IMG/VR virus record: IMGVR_UViG_3300042458_003484
Coordinates: 1-23,003 of that record
From: a virus
Length of the DNA: 23,003 nt
Reading direction: 5' to 3' (one strand)
The notes under the pieces are model-generated. The model was not told the origin of the DNA. It did not search any database and saw only the letters and a program-made list of their open reading frames with translations. This document shows, one piece after another, positions 1-16,791 of this stretch (its first letter is position 1; each line of letters opens with the position of its first letter). The position numbers and the translations under genes were made by a program.

Positions 1-1041
1 ATGCCAAAGGTTCCCTCATTCACGCCGAAATTGACTGATCGCGGGTGGTCGGTTTCGATCCCGCCGACTTTTACGGGGAGCGGAAAACGGGAGCGGCGAT
101 TTTTCTCTGACCCGAAGTTGGCGGAGCGGTTCGCGGGGGCTTTGAGGTCCAAGCTGCGGTCTGGGCAGATCGGCGGAGTGATCCCTTACGATTTGGCGCT
201 CGATGCGGCGAAGGCGATCGAGATCCTGAAGCCGCACGGGCTGACTTTGCTGGACGCAGCCAAAGAGGTGGCGGCGAGGATCGAAAAGGCGGGGACTTCG
301 GAGACGTTCGCAGAGCGGCATGCGGCGGTGATGCTGGCGAATGAGGCGAGGTGGCGGCAAAATTACATGGAGAGCATCGAGAAGATGGCGCGCTGGCTGC
401 CTGATTGGTTCATGGCGACTCAGTGCAATCTGATCGACAAGGAGGTGATCGGGCGGGCGCTGGATGGACCGACGGCGCGTTCGACGAAGGACTTGCGGGG
501 GCGCTATATTTCGGCGGTGCTGGGGCATCGCGAGCGCCACCATAAAAGCGAGCACATCGAGATTCTAACGCCGGAGCAGGTGGATGTTCTGCTGCGGGCT
601 TGTGAGTCGAAGGAGGAGGCGTGGGCGATTGCGCTGCTGCTGTTTGCGGGGATCCGGCCTGACTCGCAGTCGGGCGAAATTTCAAAGCTGGATTGGTCGG
701 ACGTCGGGAAGGATGAGATTTACATTTCCCCTGGCATCGCAAAAACGGGGACGGATCGTCACATACCGATCACACCTCGGCTACGGCGAATGCTGAATGG
801 CCATCCGAAAAGCGGGACGGTGGTGCCATCCAACTGGAAGAAAGTCCACCAGCGGCTGCGCAAGGCGGCTGGGATCACGGCGAGCGATGTGCTGCGCCAC
901 ACCTTCGCGTCGAACTATCTCGCGGCCTACGGCGAGAAGGCGTGTAAGGACGCTATGGGGCACACGGCGGGGTCGTCGGTGCTGTTCCGCCACTACCGCC
1001 GGTCGATCACCGAGGAAGCGGGGAAGCAGTTTTTCAGGTGA
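1..1041 (+). CDS. int: Tyrosine recombinase / phage integrase
   Basis: Catalyses site-specific integration and excision of the phage by DNA strand exchange. The 346-residue protein has the catalytic layout of the lambda-integrase family: Arg219 in AGIRPDS, Lys248 in AKTGTDR, Arg299 and His300 in VLRHTFAS, His321 in MGHTAGS, and the nucleophile Tyr332 in FRHYRRS. The first His of the usual HxxRH box is replaced by Asp296, a variant position. The N-terminal 180 residues would be the arm- and core-binding part. The ATG is the first base of the window, so upstream context (RBS, attachment site, a possible longer start) cannot be judged. It is codirectional with the early genes and convergent with the leftward RHH gene. 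The family call is firm; the integration site is unknown. Confidence 0.93.
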   Translation: MPKVPSFTPKLTDRGWSVSIPPTFTGSGKRERRFFSDPKLAERFAGALRSKLRSGQIGGVIPYDLALDAAKAIEILKPHGLTLLDAAKEVAARIEKAGTSETFAERHAAVMLANEARWRQNYMESIEKMARWLPDWFMATQCNLIDKEVIGRALDGPTARSTKDLRGRYISAVLGHRERHHKSEHIEILTPEQVDVLLRACESKEEAWAIALLLFAGIRPDSQSGEISKLDWSDVGKDEIYISPGIAKTGTDRHIPITPRLRRMLNGHPKSGTVVPSNWKKVHQRLRKAAGITASDVLRHTFASNYLAAYGEKACKDAMGHTAGSSVLFRHYRRSITEEAGKQFFR

Positions 1042-1080: not shown

Positions 1081-1302
1081 TCATTGGAAGGTCTTATCGG
1101 GGGGGGTATTTGACGCCGTTAAACGCTGTTCGCGCTCCAAATCTTCAATGGCTTGTTTGAGGCATTGTGCGGCAAAATTAGCCATCGAGCGGCCATCATA
1201 TTGCGCGGCTTTTTTGATGCGGTTTTTGAGATCCTTCGTCATTGACACCCCTAGCATCGTTTGGTCGGGCGATCGATCGTGACTTCTTTTTTCGGTGGGC
1301 AT
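1081..1302 (-). CDS. Ribbon-helix-helix regulator, leftward (candidate lysogeny repressor)
   Basis: A 73-residue protein with an Arc/CopG-like core at residues 16-56: a short strand (MLGVSMTKDL), a basic helix (KNRIKKAAQYDGRS) and a second helix (MANFAAQCLKQAIEDLE). Such proteins bind palindromic operators as paired dimers. The gene is transcribed away from a second RHH gene at 1401, and the region between them contains the repeated GCCGTTTAACG motif, so autoregulation and cross-regulation are likely. The predicted promoter places the transcription start at or next to the A of the ATG, giving a leaderless mRNA like lambda cI from PRM. The 3' end contains a run of eight G/C (1099-1106) and a near-perfect operator copy. 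That it is the maintenance repressor is inferred from position alone. Confidence 0.75.
   Translation of the reverse strand: MPTEKRSHDRSPDQTMLGVSMTKDLKNRIKKAAQYDGRSMANFAAQCLKQAIEDLEREQRLTASNTPPDKTFQ
1109..1123. promoter_or_regulatory. Operator-like site O3 (TTTGACGCCGTTAAA)
   Basis: Matches the O1/O2 palindrome at 14 of 15 bases and continues with GCTGTT 10 bp after GCCGTT, keeping the direct-repeat spacing. It lies in the 3' end of the leftward RHH gene, near the end of the integrase gene, so it may serve in looping or simply be a chance coding match. Confidence 0.45.
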
Positions 1303-1308
1303 GCTGTG

Positions 1309-1337
1309 AATTTACCACGCCGTTTAACGCCTTGCAA
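1309..1337 (-). promoter_or_regulatory. Predicted leftward promoter with operator half-site in its spacer
   Basis: Read on the minus strand there is TTGCAA (1337-1332, 4/6 to the -35 consensus), a 17-base spacer and TAAATT (1314-1309, 4/6 to the -10). The start would fall at about 1302, the first base of the leftward RHH ATG, giving a leaderless transcript. The spacer holds GCCGTTTAACGCC (1319-1331), a half match to the operator. TTGCAA is its own reverse complement, so it could also act as the -35 of a rightward promoter with TATTTT (1356-1361, spacer 18). Prediction only. Confidence 0.4.
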
Positions 1338-1377
1338 AAAAAATTAAACTTTTTTTATTTTTTGCTTGCGGATGCCG

Positions 1378-1392
1378 TTTAACGCCGTTAAA
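1378..1392. promoter_or_regulatory. Palindromic operator O1 (TTTAACGCCGTTAAA)
   Basis: Perfect inverted repeat TTTAACG-C-CGTTAAA, ending eight bases before the ATG of the rightward RHH gene. With flanking bases it also reads as two direct GCCGTT copies 10 bp apart (1375 and 1385), the spacing expected for two RHH dimers on one helix face. An identical 15-mer occurs at 1651-1665. Confidence 0.75.
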
Positions 1393-1400
1393 TACCGCTC

Positions 1401-1616
1401 ATGACTGACAAACAAGCAGACCAAACGATCAACCCCGCAAGTGATACAAACAATCCACAAAACGATTTCCTCGGTGTCAAGCTGCCAAGTGATTTGATGC
1501 TGAAAATCAAGGCAGCCGCCGCAGCTGATGGGAGATCGGTCTCCTCGTTTGTTCGGCAACATCTCGGCAAGTACACTGATCAGGTCATCAGCGAGCACGC
1601 CGCCCAGAATAACTGA
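1401..1616 (+). CDS. Ribbon-helix-helix regulator, rightward (Arc/Mnt/Cro-like role)
   Basis: A 71-residue protein: a flexible polar N-terminus (1-22), then an RHH core with the strand FLGVKLPSDL (23-32), a helix of Lys/Ala (MLKIKAAAAADGRS) and a helix VSSFVRQHLGKYTDQVI. It is distantly similar in layout to the leftward RHH protein (LGV..., DGRSxxxF) but not a close duplicate. The operator TTTAACGCCGTTAAA ends eight bases before the ATG, and another perfect copy lies downstream before the next gene. By position it would be the first product of the early rightward transcript. No Shine-Dalgarno is visible; the leader is AAATACCGCTC. The fold call is good, the Cro- or Arc-like role is inferred. 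Confidence 0.78.
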   Translation: MTDKQADQTINPASDTNNPQNDFLGVKLPSDLMLKIKAAAAADGRSVSSFVRQHLGKYTDQVISEHAAQNN

Positions 1617-1650
1617 TTTCCGACCTGTCCGTTCTTTTTTGCAAATGCCG

Positions 1651-1665
1651 TTTAACGCCGTTAAA
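1651..1665. promoter_or_regulatory. Palindromic operator O2 (TTTAACGCCGTTAAA)
   Basis: Second perfect copy of the 15-bp palindrome, two bases before the ATG of the HTH gene at 1668. It shares further upstream bases with O1 (ATGCC before the palindrome, a TTTTGC tract farther out). Protein bound here would overlap the translation start region and could block transcription or initiation. Confidence 0.72.
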
Positions 1666-1667
1666 AC

Positions 1668-4696: not shown

Positions 4697-5019
4697 TTGA
4701 CCACATCGAGCAACTCGGTCTCTTCGATGAGCCGAGCAAACTGGAGAAGCAGTTCCTCAAGTTCCATCTCGCGAACCCGCATGTCTATCAACTGCTCGTA
4801 TCTTTCGCGAGAGAGTGGCGGATCAAGGGCAAGGGCAAGCTGGGGATGGGGATGCTGTTCGAGCATGCGCGCTGGGTGACGTGTACCGAGACGACCGCCG
4901 ATGACTATGTGCTGAACAATAATCACCGGGCGTTTTATGCGCGGCTGATCATGCGACGTGAGCCGGATCTGAATGGGCTCTTCAACCTCCGCGAGCAACG
5001 GGCCGCTTGTTTTTTATAA
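4693..5019 (+). CDS. Conserved phage protein of unknown function
   Basis: A 108-residue protein starting at GTG within GTGA, overlapping the previous stop, with an AGGTGGTGAG sequence upstream that can act as a Shine-Dalgarno. It shows FLKFHLANPHVYQLLVSFAREW, a basic stretch, FEHARW, then DDYVLNNNHRAFYARLIM, PDLNGLFNLRE. I recognise this arrangement (HxxNPHVY, LNNNHxAxYAR) as a widespread phage family near recombination/replication genes, but with no known activity. Probably helical; it may support replication. Confidence 0.7.
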   Translation: MIDHIEQLGLFDEPSKLEKQFLKFHLANPHVYQLLVSFAREWRIKGKGKLGMGMLFEHARWVTCTETTADDYVLNNNHRAFYARLIMRREPDLNGLFNLREQRAACFL

Positions 5020-5032
5020 CCGAACCAAACCC

Positions 5033-5524
5033 ATGATTTACATCGGAATCGACAATGGATTGACGGGCGGACTGGTCGCGCTATCGCAACATGCGGGGGC
5101 GCTTATCGACCGGATCGAGATGCCGACGCGCGGCAAGAGCAAAGGCAACGAGGTGGATGCCGTGGTAATCGGCAAGTTCCTTTGTGGCCTGCGCGAGACA
5201 GGTCCAGTCACCGTGGTGATGGAGACAGCGAGCAAATTCAGCAAGGGGCCGATGGCGCTTTGCTCAATGTGGGACAGCAATGGCTGTATCCGTGGAATCC
5301 TCGAATGGTTAGAAATCCGGCACCACCGGATCACGCCGCAGGCATGGCAGCGGGTCATGCTGCCCGGCTGCAAAAAAGGCGACACCAAGCCCGCGGCACT
5401 GCAACGGGCTCGGCAATTATGGCCCGAGGAGACGTGGCTGAGAAGCCACCGCTGCACGAAGCCACATGACGGGATGATCGATGCCGCGTTAATCGCGGAG
5501 TATGGGAGGGTGAAGAAGCTATGA
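5033..5524 (+). CDS. RuvC-like Holliday-junction resolvase / RNase H-fold nuclease
   Basis: A 163-residue protein with the RuvC layout: IGIDNGLTGG (Asp7), VVMETAS (Glu64) and KPHDGMIDAALIAEYG (Asp146 and Asp150), the four acidic residues expected to bind two metal ions. Family role: cleave four-way junctions and branched DNA before packaging. The start at 5033 follows an AACCGAACCAAACCC leader without a Shine-Dalgarno; an in-frame ATG at 4973 would add 20 residues but lies inside the preceding gene. The stop overlaps the next ATG by four bases. It closes the recombination module. Confidence 0.85.
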   Translation: MIYIGIDNGLTGGLVALSQHAGALIDRIEMPTRGKSKGNEVDAVVIGKFLCGLRETGPVTVVMETASKFSKGPMALCSMWDSNGCIRGILEWLEIRHHRITPQAWQRVMLPGCKKGDTKPAALQRARQLWPEETWLRSHRCTKPHDGMIDAALIAEYGRVKKL

Positions 5525-6519
5525 GTAAAGAAATCAAACACGTGAAGCCGTGCGTGAAGTGTGGGGCTGCGGATCGGGTTATGTCAGGAGGATGTCGTCA
5601 ATGCGCAGTATTCAGCCGTGAGAAGTATCTCGCCAAAAACCCTAATTATTTCAAAGACCGTTACAATCGGATGCTCGCGGAAAACCCTGATTTTTTGAGT
5701 GAGCAATACGCAAGAAAGATCGCCAAAAACCCCGATCTTAATAAAGAAAATTACGCGAAACTGCTCGAAAAAAAACCCAATCACAACAAAGAACATTACG
5801 CAAAATATATCGCAAACAATCCAGATCGTCGCCGCGAACGACACGAAAAGTACTTAAGACAGATCGAAAAAAATCCCGACTACAACAAAGAGAATTATGA
5901 AAAACAGGTCGCAAAAAACCCTAATCGGGGTCGTGAGTATTACGCAAAACTGCTAGCGAAAAACCCCAACCATCTCCACGAGCGCCGTGAACAATACGTA
6001 AAAAAAATCGAGAAAAATCCTAATCACAACAAAGAAAACTACGCGAAACTGCTTGGGAAAAAACCCAATCGTAATAAAGATGAGTATGCAAGACGGATCG
6101 GGAAAAATCCTGATTACAATAAAGAGCAATACTCAAAGATGATTGCTAAAAAGCTTGCTGAAAATCCGGATTATCACCGTGAGCAATATGCCAAGCAGAT
6201 CGAGAGAAATCCGGAAATGCGCCGTGAACAAAGCGCGAAAAAGCTTGATGTAAATCCGGATTACTACCGCGAACAATATGCTAAGCGACTCGCGGAAAAT
6301 CCGAATTATCAGCGCGAGCAATACGCCAAGAAGATCGCGGAGAATCCGAATTATCGACGCGAAAAATACAACAAGGAGCTCGAAAAAAATCCGGATTATC
6401 AACGCGAATACCTCACCAAGAAAAAAGAAGCCAAATCAGCAAAAACCTTCTTCCAACTCCTCGCCGCAGGGCAGGCAATCTCCGATTACGCAAAACAACA
6501 AACCAAAGAAAACCAATAA
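5521..6519 (+). CDS. Zinc-knuckle protein with 17 basic tandem repeats
   Basis: A 332-residue, strongly basic protein. Residues 11-28 hold CxxC-x10-CxxC, a small zinc-binding module. From about residue 36, 17 degenerate copies follow of the unit (I/L)AKNPDYNREQYAKK, mostly 15 residues long. Units 5, 8 and 11 are 18-19 residues long, so three-unit blocks of about 48 residues appear to have been duplicated. The end (residues 290-332) loses the repeat. Zn-knuckle plus Y-x-(K/R)-N-(P/x) basic repeats precede the nuclease domain in phage endonuclease VII/HNH proteins, but no nuclease motif is present here. The coding sequence is more A/T-rich than its neighbours. Possibly a DNA- or RNA-binding, nucleoid-like protein; function unknown. 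Confidence 0.72.
   Translation: MSKEIKHVKPCVKCGAADRVMSGGCRQCAVFSREKYLAKNPNYFKDRYNRMLAENPDFLSEQYARKIAKNPDLNKENYAKLLEKKPNHNKEHYAKYIANNPDRRRERHEKYLRQIEKNPDYNKENYEKQVAKNPNRGREYYAKLLAKNPNHLHERREQYVKKIEKNPNHNKENYAKLLGKKPNRNKDEYARRIGKNPDYNKEQYSKMIAKKLAENPDYHREQYAKQIERNPEMRREQSAKKLDVNPDYYREQYAKRLAENPNYQREQYAKKIAENPNYRREKYNKELEKNPDYQREYLTKKKEAKSAKTFFQLLAAGQAISDYAKQQTKENQ
5629..6423 (+). repeat. Degenerate 45-bp tandem repeat array with 144-bp higher order
   Basis: Coding repeat of 17 units, mostly 45 bp, in the gene at 5521. Units 5-7, 8-10 and 11-13 each begin with a lengthened unit (54-57 bp), giving a ~144-bp superunit. The DNA copies are diverged, with recurring AAAAA(C/T)CC(C/T)GA-type cores. 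Confidence 0.7.
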
Positions 6520-7461: not shown

Positions 7462-8321
7462 ACTGGTTGAATTTGGAGACACGGGTGCTGCACTCTCCCG
7501 AATTTATCGGTTGCGAGCCGACCGAACAGGCGACGTGGCTGAAGCTGATGATGTATTGCGCGAGCCAAGAGAACGGTGGCGTGATCACCGGATGTGACGG
7601 CTGGAAGTGCCGACGCTGGCAGCAGACCTGCGGGGTGATGCTGGAGGAGGTATCGGCGGAGTGTGAATTGTGGGAGTGGGATGGGAATGATGTGGTTCTG
7701 TGGGGATACCCTTCAGACAAGGAGGAAGACGTTAAACTGAAGAGAGATGCGGGATCGAGAGGTGGACGCAAGAAGGCCGAAAACGCGAAAGTTTCTAGCA
7801 CTCCGCTAGCACCAGCCCTAGCAGAATGCGAAAGTGCTACTAGCACACCGCCTAGTGAAACGGAAAACACTAGCTACGGAAAGGAAAGGAAAGGAAAGGA
7901 AAGGAATGAAAAGGAAGCTGCTACCGCAGCTAGCGCGGAGGCGGCGGTGGCGGTGGCACGGATCGGGCAGAAAATCCAATCGCTGCGGTCGAGCTGGGGA
8001 TTTCCGATGACCCACGGCGAACGGGTGACGATCGGCAACGATCTGGAGCTTTTCGAGGGGATCGGTGAGGCGGAATGGGGCGCGATTCGTGACTACCTCC
8101 GTGCGAGGCTCCCAGAGGGCGCTGTAGGCTGGCAACCTATCAAGCGGGACAAGTTCGCACAGACCGCGTCAGACGTCCTTCAGCACGCCTTGTGGTGGCG
8201 AGAAAAGCGCACTCCGCTGCCATCGATCACCCAGATTTTTGAAAAGGTGGTCGTCACTCCGGAAAAACGGGCCGAGGCGGTCGCGGATTTCAAGGAAGTC
8301 TTCGGGAGGGTCGGCGGGTGA
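7458..8321 (+). CDS. Putative phage replication initiator / replisome organiser
   Basis: A 287-residue protein. The N-terminal part (1-95) begins MNWLNLETRVLHSPEFIGCEPTEQ with WLKLMMYCASQENGGVITGC and ends in a polar segment: this is the winged-helix pattern of phage replisome organisers. Residues 96-160 form a low-complexity linker (GGRKKAENAK, STPLAPALAE, GKERKGKERNEKE). The C-terminal domain (about 165-287) is helical and ends in ITQIFEKVVVTPEKRAEAVADFKEVFG, suited to recruiting a helicase or its loader. The linker-coding DNA carries the CTAG and GGAAA repeats, as the lambda O gene carries ori. No helicase gene is in the window, so the phage probably borrows the host one. The call is by architecture and context. 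Confidence 0.6.
   Translation: MNWLNLETRVLHSPEFIGCEPTEQATWLKLMMYCASQENGGVITGCDGWKCRRWQQTCGVMLEEVSAECELWEWDGNDVVLWGYPSDKEEDVKLKRDAGSRGGRKKAENAKVSSTPLAPALAECESATSTPPSETENTSYGKERKGKERNEKEAATAASAEAAVAVARIGQKIQSLRSSWGFPMTHGERVTIGNDLELFEGIGEAEWGAIRDYLRARLPEGAVGWQPIKRDKFAQTASDVLQHALWWREKRTPLPSITQIFEKVVVTPEKRAEAVADFKEVFGRVGG
7793..7936. repeat. CTAG(CAC) iteron-like cluster (candidate origin)
   Basis: CTAG occurs at 7795, 7806, 7818, 7840, 7852, 7870 and 7930, five of them followed by C and four extending to CTAGCA(C). The first steps are 11, 12, 22 and 12 bp, close to whole helical turns. The motif CTAG is elsewhere thin in this window (about 15 in 23 kb). It lies in the linker part of the replication gene, next to a purine-only tract. 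Function is inferred. Confidence 0.5.
7878..7906. repeat. GGAAA tandem repeat, 29-base homopurine run
   Basis: Five full GGAAA units and a partial sixth, within 29 successive purines on the + strand, continued after one T by GAAAAGGAAG. It lies within the replication gene and encodes the Lys/Glu/Arg linker. Five-base units do not divide by three, so a unit gained or lost would shift the frame. Confidence 0.85.
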
Positions 8322-8545
8322 GTAAAGCACCGAACCGACCGAAGAGGACGGACAATGCGCCCAAGGGGATCGAGATTGATCTTGGGCTGGCGATCTCGGG
8401 GGCAACCCTGGTCCACGGCCAATATCGGGATTTGAATGAGCTGGCCGCCTACTGCAACTGCTCGAAACAGATGATTCACTACATTGAAAAAAAGGCGATC
8501 CGCAAGGTCCGCAAGGCACTATTAGAAAAACTAGAAAATGAATAA
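8318..8545 (+). CDS. Small helix-turn-helix protein (sigma-region-4-like)
   Basis: A 75-residue protein starting at GTG in GTGA, overlapping the replication gene stop, with GGGAGG upstream as a Shine-Dalgarno. The C-terminal half LNELAAYCNCSKQMIHYIEKKAIRKVRKAL has the pattern of the sigma-70 region 4 or XRE helix-turn-helix, with Cys-Ser-Lys-Gln-Met at the recognition turn. The N-terminal half is Lys/Pro-rich. Placed after the replication protein, it may be a middle regulator. The stop region overlaps the next ATG by eight bases. Confidence 0.65.
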   Translation: MSKAPNRPKRTDNAPKGIEIDLGLAISGATLVHGQYRDLNELAAYCNCSKQMIHYIEKKAIRKVRKALLEKLENE

Positions 8546-10849: not shown

Positions 10850-11329
10850 ATGATGCTGTATGAAAACACGGGAAGCTACACGCCAGACATGGCGGAGTTG
10901 ATCGATACCGAGGAAGAGATCATTGCGGATGACATCGGCGTCAGCATTAAGCAGGCGCGGCGGATCATGAAGATGCGCGACGACGCGGTGATGAGGAATC
11001 AATCGCTGATCCTCGCTCGGGTGATTGGGCTCATGCTTCAATCGTCGAACCTTCCGGCGACGGTGCACGCGCTGGCGCTGGCCTCGGGGCTGGATCAGCT
11101 GAACGGCAAGAAGAGCCAAGCGGAGATCGCTCGGGAGCTGGGCTGCACGCGGGCGCTGATTTCGCACTACACGGTTGGGATCCGCGACATCCTGAGCGGG
11201 AAGGATTCAAACTTTGACTGCCTCAAATACCGCAAGAGTCAAGCGTCGCGCGAGGTCTATAAAGCCAAGGCGACCGATCCATTTACCAAGGCCAAGGCAG
11301 AAGCCAGGGCAAGACATTCTAACCAATAA
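10850..11329 (+). CDS. Putative late-gene regulator, helix-turn-helix
   Basis: A 159-residue protein with two HTH-like stretches: IIADDIGVSIKQARRIMKMRDD (about 25-46) and KSQAEIARELGCTRALISHYTVGIRDIL (about 88-115). The second is like sigma-70 region 4 and phage late activators. The C-terminus is basic (YKAKATDPFTKAKAEARARHSN). AAGGA six bases before the first ATG acts as a Shine-Dalgarno, better than most genes here. It stands alone at the border of early and late genes, preceded by an inverted repeat and a TTGACA (10819), which suggests control of late transcription; this is inference. Confidence 0.65.
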   Translation: MMLYENTGSYTPDMAELIDTEEEIIADDIGVSIKQARRIMKMRDDAVMRNQSLILARVIGLMLQSSNLPATVHALALASGLDQLNGKKSQAEIARELGCTRALISHYTVGIRDILSGKDSNFDCLKYRKSQASREVYKAKATDPFTKAKAEARARHSNQ

Positions 11330-15880: not shown

Positions 15881-16066
15881 TTATAGCCGGAGAAACAACG
15901 CATTCGCAACCGCTGACCGACTCACCCCCTGCCGCAGCGACTCAGCCTTCAGCTTCTCCGCCGCTTCCGGCGTCACGCAAACCGCGATCGTCGCCACGCT
16001 TCGACCAGCCTTCCGGCCCGCACCTTCACGCGCGCCTCCTTTTTTCTTTTCTGGTTCTTCTGTCAT
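15881..16066 (-). CDS. Small RHH protein with Gly/Arg-rich basic start
   Basis: A 61-residue protein: GGAREGAGRKAGRS at 10-23, a motif common in bacterial DNA-binding proteins with a basic arm, followed by VATIAVCVTPEAAEKLKAESLRQGVSRSAVANALFLRL, an RHH-like strand-helix-helix. Such proteins often regulate their own operon. The start overlaps the previous stop by four bases (ATGA on the minus strand). It could repress the promoter at about 17.03 kb, whose start region carries a palindrome. Confidence 0.6.
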   Translation of the reverse strand: MTEEPEKKKGGAREGAGRKAGRSVATIAVCVTPEAAEKLKAESLRQGVSRSAVANALFLRL

Positions 16067-16416
16067 TGAATGTTAGTTTTGATCAATTCAACTTCAGTTG
16101 ATTCATACTCGACCTCGCCGTCTTCATCCGGCTCCGAGAATGTTTCAGTCACCCGGACGATGGCATATTTCCCATCGAACTCACACAGCGCGTCATCATT
16201 CCAATGAGAGATCCAGACGTCTTCGCGTCCGTTGCTTTCCCATTTCGCGCCTTCTGGAAGAAGCGACTTGAATGCCGGGGCTAACACCGTCAGAGACAAT
16301 CCGTCGTTCTCCGAAAGGTAGAGGTTACCCTTGAATCCTCCGTCAGCCACCACGTCGATACGATATGGTGCATGTTTGAATGAGATTCCGAACTCAGATG
16401 ATTTGATCGTTTTCAT
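16063..16416 (-). CDS. Hypothetical acidic protein of the minus-strand block
   Basis: A 117-residue protein of mixed strands and acidic loops (FGISFKHAPYRIDVVADGGFKGNLYLSEND, GAKWESNGREDVWISHWNDDAL, DGKYAIVRVTETFSEPDEDGEVEYE). It is compact, soluble and acidic, features seen in many phage anti-defence proteins, but this is no evidence of function. Its leader contains the T-arm-like hairpin (16442-16462) and ends AACTCCTAGAAAAAA-like (here CACTCCTAGAAAAAA) before ATG, lacking a Shine-Dalgarno. Confidence 0.6.
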   Translation of the reverse strand: MKTIKSSEFGISFKHAPYRIDVVADGGFKGNLYLSENDGLSLTVLAPAFKSLLPEGAKWESNGREDVWISHWNDDALCEFDGKYAIVRVTETFSEPDEDGEVEYESTEVELIKTNIQ

Positions 16417-16441
16417 TTTTTTCTAGGAGTGAATGATTAGG

Positions 16442-16469: not shown

Positions 16470-16766
16470 TTAGATTTCAGAAACTGAAAAATCATCCCAG
16501 TTGCAAGCCTCCGACTCATCCTCAGTATTGCTGTTGATGATCTCCCAAGTCACCTTGTATTGGATCGGGTCACCATCAGTGTCGCGGTGCGTCCGACTGG
16601 TGGCGTGCGCCTCGTACCAGACATCAGTGGGCGTTCCGCCCTGATTGATGTAGGCTTGTTTAGTGAGGTCAATGATCTCGCCGTCATCTTTGATGATGGT
16701 CCCGTGATCGCATCCGTTGATGCCGGTGGTCGTGTATTGGCTATTTTGTCCGTATTGTAGTTTCAT
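16470..16766 (-). CDS. Hypothetical acidic protein of the minus-strand block
   Basis: A 98-residue protein with polar, beta-like character (KLQYGQNSQYTTTGINGCDHGTIIKDDGEIIDLTKQAY, DVWYEAHATSRTHRDTDGDPIQYKVTWEI) and an acidic tail (NTEDESEACNWDDFSVSEI). No family recognised. The start follows CACTCCTAG-type leader AACTCCTAGAAAAAA, nearly the same as that of the next gene, and a T-arm-like hairpin lies 25 bases upstream. The repeated leader suggests common post-transcriptional control. Confidence 0.6.
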   Translation of the reverse strand: MKLQYGQNSQYTTTGINGCDHGTIIKDDGEIIDLTKQAYINQGGTPTDVWYEAHATSRTHRDTDGDPIQYKVTWEIINSNTEDESEACNWDDFSVSEI

Positions 16767-16791
16767 TTTTTTCTAGGAGTTAATGATTGAG

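Follow-up and report, generated by a model that had tools for sequence, protein, structure and literature searches.

A divergent pair of predicted ribbon-helix-helix genes with recurring promoter-embedded sites: a putative lysis-lysogeny switch in a phage of a likely Verrucomicrobiota host

Most of the temperate phages that have been studied use helix-turn-helix (HTH) repressors of the CI type. In the CI/Cro region of lambda-type phages, divergent regulators lie beside int/xis and a recombination operon, repeated operators stand within the promoters, and the region is exchanged as a block between relatives. Control by two ribbon-helix-helix (RHH) proteins is known mainly from the secondary immI region of phage P22, where two small RHH repressors are divergently encoded. 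Mnt represses arc/ant and Arc represses mnt (PMC11016777). In the archaeal virus SSV1, a single RHH protein, F55, maintains dormancy through an 11-nt site that occurs several times, in the early promoters and in its own (PMC9608457). Arc-type RHH proteins are also found in Pf phages (Arc proteins) and in SPbeta (YosL), where they have been implicated in lysis-lysogeny control by position or expression (PMC7549136, PMC10516654). The literature that we searched, mostly outside subscription journals, contained no paper on a primary switch made of two RHH proteins.

We analysed a whole viral record of 23,003 bases, hereafter the window. The genes that concern us lie at its left end:

1 to 1041, + strand: tyrosine integrase (Phage_integrase, 1.3e-8; phrog_1, 1.1e-17), convergent with rhh1
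1081 to 1302, - strand (leftward): rhh1, predicted RHH protein of 73 aa, recognition strand MLGVSM
1401 to 1616, + strand (rightward): rhh2, predicted RHH protein of 71 aa, recognition strand FLGVKL
1668 to 1856, + strand: xis-like gene after rhh2, encoding an HTH_17 excisionase-like protein of 62 aa (HTH_17, 2.9e-6, above cut-off; phrog_66 excisionase, 3.2e-4)
2962 and 3600, downstream of xis: RecT and exonuclease VIII

The integrase matched only Akkermansia phages in the phage collection and, among genomes, one Verrucomicrobiaceae MAG and one genome labelled Acidobacteriales. The Akkermansia-phage and Verrucomicrobiaceae matches make a Verrucomicrobiota host likely. Further along, positions 5521-6519 hold a 332-aa ORF with a zinc-ribbon-like N-terminus followed by many degenerate repeats of the KNPNxxxExYAK type.

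The first-pass annotation of this DNA had described two different, divergently encoded RHH proteins, and this was borne out by Pfam, PHROG and PDB profiles, AF2 models and Foldseek. RHH1 matched RHH_5 (2.5e-5; 24.3 bits, under the 26-bit cut-off) and the Arc-like phrog_582 (2.8e-5), while RHH2 matched RHH_5 (0.0014) and RHH_1 (0.0037), both under cut-off; Arc-like repressors were among the best PHROG matches of both proteins. Profile searches of PDB sequences gave matches that include AmrZ, PutA and Mnt. Alignment-based AF2 monomer models of both proteins show an extended N-terminal segment, to which no strand was assigned, followed by helices of about 14 and 23-25 residues. The best fold matches found by Foldseek in the PDB were RHH proteins, Arc and CopG included, none with an E-value below 0.05. 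On these fold and profile grounds both proteins are predicted to be of the ribbon-helix-helix (MetJ/Arc/CopG) type. Against 50,697 phage records, RHH1 gave no match and RHH2 just a weak one.

The 15-mer TTTAACGCCGTTAAA, noted at the first pass before the rhh2 and xis-like starts, is indeed exact at 1378-1392 and 1651-1665, leaving 8 bp to the rhh2 ATG at 1401 and 2 bp to the xis-like ATG at 1668. The copy with 14 of 15 matches claimed at the leftward gene's 3' end is likewise present, at 1109-1123, and none of 100 shuffles reached the match count of the window. Both exact sites extend to a 21-bp repeat, ATGCCGTTTAACGCCGTTAAA (1372-1392 and 1645-1665); apart from a run of GGAAA and the pair 16411/16761, the window has no other exact direct repeat of at least 18 bp. 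This pair (TTTCATTTTTTTCTAGGAGT, exact over about 20 bp, 16411-16430 and 16761-16780) coincides with the starts of the leftward ORFs 16063-16416 and 16470-16766 and is possibly a translation-start signal that they share. Upstream of the leftward rhh1, a copy exists where a half-site had been proposed, but it turns out to be an exact core of 13 bp, GCCGTTTAACGCC, at 1319-1331. GCCGTT recurs at a distance of 10 bp within the site, in keeping with the direct repeats first described. The operators had also been called palindromic; palindromes are clear in some loci, but the sequences compared here are better read with a tandem 10-bp half-site, lying within the promoter spacer, as the unit. The sites and promoters that we propose are the following:

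1108 to 1127, - strand: operator-like site within the rhh1 3' end, an inverted copy with a 16/20 match
1309 to 1337, - strand: proposed leftward promoter, TTGCAA (1337-1332), 17 bp, TAAATT (1314-1309), 6 nt before the rhh1 ATG; the operator core 1319-1331 lies in the spacer
1366 to 1394, + strand: proposed rightward promoter, TTGCGG (1366-1371), 17 bp, TAAATA (1389-1394), 6 nt before the rhh2 ATG
1374 to 1393, + strand: putative operator OR, two 10-bp direct repeats, GCCGTTTAAC followed by GCCGTTAAAT
1647 to 1666, + strand: putative operator OX before xis, GCCGTTTAACGCCGTTAAAA, with TTGCAA at 1639-1644 and TAAAAC at 1662-1667

The site inside rhh1 was rejected as a general third operator: a possible counterpart was found in the closest relative (L204) only, where coding constraint may be its source. 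A scan of the viral collection for TTTAACGCCGTTAAA returned at least 120 stretches, which is about chance level, so that the 15-mer alone is useless as a marker across viral contigs and was set aside.

Related loci were collected from RecT relatives first, then from RHH1 and integrase alignments, and from 388 genomes of the phylum of the Verrucomicrobiaceae MAG. Twelve further non-redundant loci with a divergent RHH pair were obtained, nine viral and three in bacterial genomes (L204, L136, L138, L207, L208, L215, L216, L267, L226, L238, L239 and L240), and most of them have an excisionase-like gene downstream; counts out of 13 below refer to the window and these 12 relatives. A genomic pair of divergent RHH-like ORFs (L243/L281), to which the promoter geometry described below did not fit by eye, was left out. 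Protein searches of viral contigs with RHH2 alone or integrase alone gave no match. A genome search with an RHH2 profile returned mostly unrelated RHH genes and no new independent divergent pair. Many matches from the 388 genomes (L234-L237 and similar) are RHH genes of the host that lack a divergent partner. In three integrase relatives, L124 (2273-2677, minus strand), L209 and L212, the rhh1 position is taken by a different regulator, divergent from a small gene and xis; that of L124 has 135 aa and, towards its C-terminus, a weak match of the TacA1-like (RHH) type. Between integrase and rhh1, L136 (4420-4620), L216 and L226 carry a tRNA-like 3' end that is likely an attachment site. Near it, ATTGACGCTAC (L136/L138) or GTGGCAA/TTGCCAC (L216/L226) is repeated, possibly as integrase arm sites. 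The window has no tRNA-like stretch, and its int is inverted relative to rhh1.

A 10/11-bp direct repeat, a palindrome or both were found within 50 bp upstream of rhh2 in 11 of the 13 loci; L136 and L138 have their repeat farther off, at about 68 bp. Examples are TCCGTAAAGC followed by TCCGTTAAAC (L204), CGTTAAACGG followed by TCTTAAACGG (L267), TGCCGTTTTACGGCATACAACGGCA (L216), CCGTAACACGGCTAGTTACGG (L215) and TGGCGTGCTG followed by TGGCGTGCTA (L240). In z values pooled over loci, not every one of which is significant singly, the direct-repeat signal appeared at 10-bp spacing only (z 6.1; all other spacings from 5 to 20, z at most 2.3), and palindromes reached a z of 4.0. Counted from the rhh2 ATG, the beginning of the main site falls at -26 to -28 in six loci (the window, L204, L207, L216, L267 and L238). 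Extra copies near rhh1, downstream or both were observed in 9 of the 13 loci: the window, L204, L136, L208 and L267 have one towards rhh1, and downstream copies lie at +118 to +136 (L215, L238, L239), +246 (window) and +344 to +407 (L136, L138, L204). No convincing second copy was seen in L207, L216, L226 and L240. The first-pass annotation had named the absence of the site from this position in relatives as a refutation; the relatives do have a repeated site there, but its sequence differs by locus.

In the window, the repeated site fills the -35/-10 spacer at both the rhh1 and rhh2 starts. The arrangement TTGnnn-16..18-TAnnnn-6..8-ATG, which had caught the eye in several of the 13 loci ahead of any count and is in that sense post hoc, occurs at 9/13 rhh2 starts and 5/13 rhh1 starts. 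When these upstream regions were dinucleotide-shuffled, the means were only 0.29 (rhh2) and 0.18 (rhh1), with a maximum of 3 in 2000, and the arrangement was present at 12 of 437 control ORF starts, taken mechanically from the same loci (ATG-starting, at least 60 aa). A generic sigma-70 consensus scan of 1000-2100 revealed no promoter; the leftward promoter predicted at the first pass, on which that scan was empty, is supported by the comparative geometry. A -10 element six bases before the ATG makes for a leaderless message, and the sequences imply that the rhh1 and rhh2 mRNAs would be leaderless or nearly so. At xis, the -10-like TAAAAC abuts the ATG, too close for a leaderless start, and the gene is therefore probably read from a longer message, or its start lies elsewhere.

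To compare operators with proteins we used a Mantel test over few, non-independent loci, with the operator windows of L136 and L138 placed by hand; operator similarity correlated with RHH2 similarity (r 0.63; partial r given RHH1 0.50, 0 of 2000 permutations), whereas the partial correlation with RHH1 given RHH2 was 0.17 (p 0.15). By this comparison the putative operator sequence goes with RHH2, not with RHH1. The recognition strand of RHH1 hardly changes (xLGVSM) across loci whose operators do, and this would be unusual if RHH1 repressed through those operators. In two phage pairs, near-identical flanks enclose a stretch from rhh1 to xis that alone differs. L216 and L226 are 97% alike in integrase, 186/190 in att-side DNA and 89% in xis; their RHH1 proteins are 65% and their RHH2 proteins 14% alike, and their operators are unrelated. 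L208 and L267 have 100% identical xis and near-identical flanks, with RHH1 at 62%, RHH2 at 56% and different operators; identity drops inside rhh1 and returns at or near the xis start. Putative repressor and operators are thus exchanged as a block between homologous flanks in both pairs, and the rhh1-to-xis block behaves, as far as sequence can tell, like an exchangeable immunity cassette of temperate phages. L226, the locus with the swapped RHH2 and operator, also carries a third RHH-like gene of 80 aa (MKKNMLNFRVDTEIL...) on the minus strand at about 5000-5600, between rhh1 and rhh2, whose stop overlaps the rhh1 start.

These exchanges bear on another reading, in which the sites are not operators but arm-type sites of integrase or of excisionase (directionality factor). 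The sites do lie between the integrase and the excisionase-like gene, and integrase/excisionase directionality factors often bind direct repeats. Yet they are unrelated in L216 and L226 despite the likeness of integrase and xis, they differ in L208 and L267 despite identical xis, and in six loci they are phased to the rhh2 start; we regard arm sites as very unlikely. The weak family matches to RHH antitoxins and partition proteins, which use repeated operators, would instead fit an autoregulated type II antitoxin remnant or another RHH housekeeping module (plasmid-type partition) without a lysogeny role. No toxin-like neighbour of the RHH genes was recognised, the window and nine relatives gave no ParA-type AAA_31 ATPase, and the swapping of a cassette between fixed int/xis flanks is how an immunity region behaves; together these points make such a module extremely improbable.

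We then looked for other repressors. In the window and ten relatives, no HTH_3 domain above cut-off and no S24 peptidase was detected (controls positive), which agrees with the earlier claim that a CI-type HTH repressor is lacking, within contigs that are linear and possibly partial and past whose ends a CI-type gene could lie. Since S24 peptidase was not found, induction must differ from the lambda type. The only HTH_3-like matches in the window, both weak (8432-8539 and 11108-11188, in ORFs 8318-8545 and 10850-11329), lie deep in the rightward operon; the ORF at 8318-8545, in the early operon, shows weak similarity to sigma-70 region 4 (RpoD C-terminal, sigma-32). The possible incompleteness of the contigs leaves room for an accessory anti-immunity module that modulates another, unseen primary repressor, and P22 offers a precedent with mnt/arc, a divergent RHH/RHH pair in mutual repression that is secondary to immC (PMC11016777). 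However, no antirepressor-like gene was recognised after rhh2, which is followed by xis and then the recT/exonuclease genes; the search for HTH_3 and S24 also speaks against such a module, as does the different, longer regulator at the rhh1 position of L124, L209 and L212, expected of a primary immunity slot. An accessory role is thus unlikely in our opinion, and the RHH pair region is probably the main immunity region.

We consider it likely that positions 1081-1856 form a lysis-lysogeny (immunity) switch of RHH proteins, with CI/Cro logic and a P22-immI-like anatomy. The Arc/Mnt-like lysogeny switch proposed at the first pass is in this respect retained, with the RHH folds, the recurring sites, the failure to find a CI-type repressor and the cassette exchange in its favour; its operator unit had to be corrected, and operator identity goes with RHH2. 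Binding, repression, the role in lysogeny, the protein that holds it and the control of xis we infer as follows. RHH2, the first gene product of the rightward early operon, would be a Cro/Arc-like autorepressor that binds DNA carrying GCCGTTTAACGCCGTTAAA, its dimers sitting side by side on the 10-bp tandem half-sites in the -35/-10 spacer of its own promoter; its other targets would be the copy in front of xis and that at the rhh1 promoter. RHH1, encoded divergently, would be the Mnt/CI-like counterpart and would keep the rightward promoters off in the lysogen. With rhh1 and rhh2 mRNAs presumed to start at or near the ATG, a bound repressor would shut the gene directly.

More tentatively, we propose that in a Verrucomicrobia-type phage family two RHH proteins alone may constitute a complete primary switch without an HTH repressor, with leaderless divergent messages, promoter-buried 10-bp tandem half-sites, and operator and RHH2 specificities that turn over together as exchangeable immunity types. 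If true, an RHH-only primary switch would be a second solution to the CI/Cro problem and would provide a sequence signature by which to assign immunity types in a phylum from which few phages have been isolated. The covarying operator/repressor pairs of the 13 loci lend themselves to a study of changes in strand-based recognition, and the failure to find an S24 peptidase raises the question of the route of prophage induction.

Among the described systems, SSV1 F55 differs in having one RHH gene, an archaeal promoter and no divergent RHH partner, whereas an RHH pair is present here. For neither Pf Arc nor SPbeta YosL has a divergent RHH pair sharing tandem operators been described, in contrast to the layout proposed here. 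P22 immI is likewise a divergent pair of small RHH genes, and such genes with putative operators between them were found in the window and all 12 related loci. However, the rightward RHH gene is followed here by an excisionase-like gene and the early operon instead of ant, the same site recurs at three gene starts, and no CI-type repressor corresponding to immC was found alongside. Because no ant follows and a separate CI-type repressor was not found, the module of the window is immI-like but not a member of immI. From the lambda CI/Cro region it departs in its predicted folds, which are RHH and not helix-turn-helix, and in its tandem 10-bp half-sites as opposed to 17-bp palindromes, while the position of the regulators, the repeated putative operators within promoters and the block exchange are those of lambda CI/Cro.
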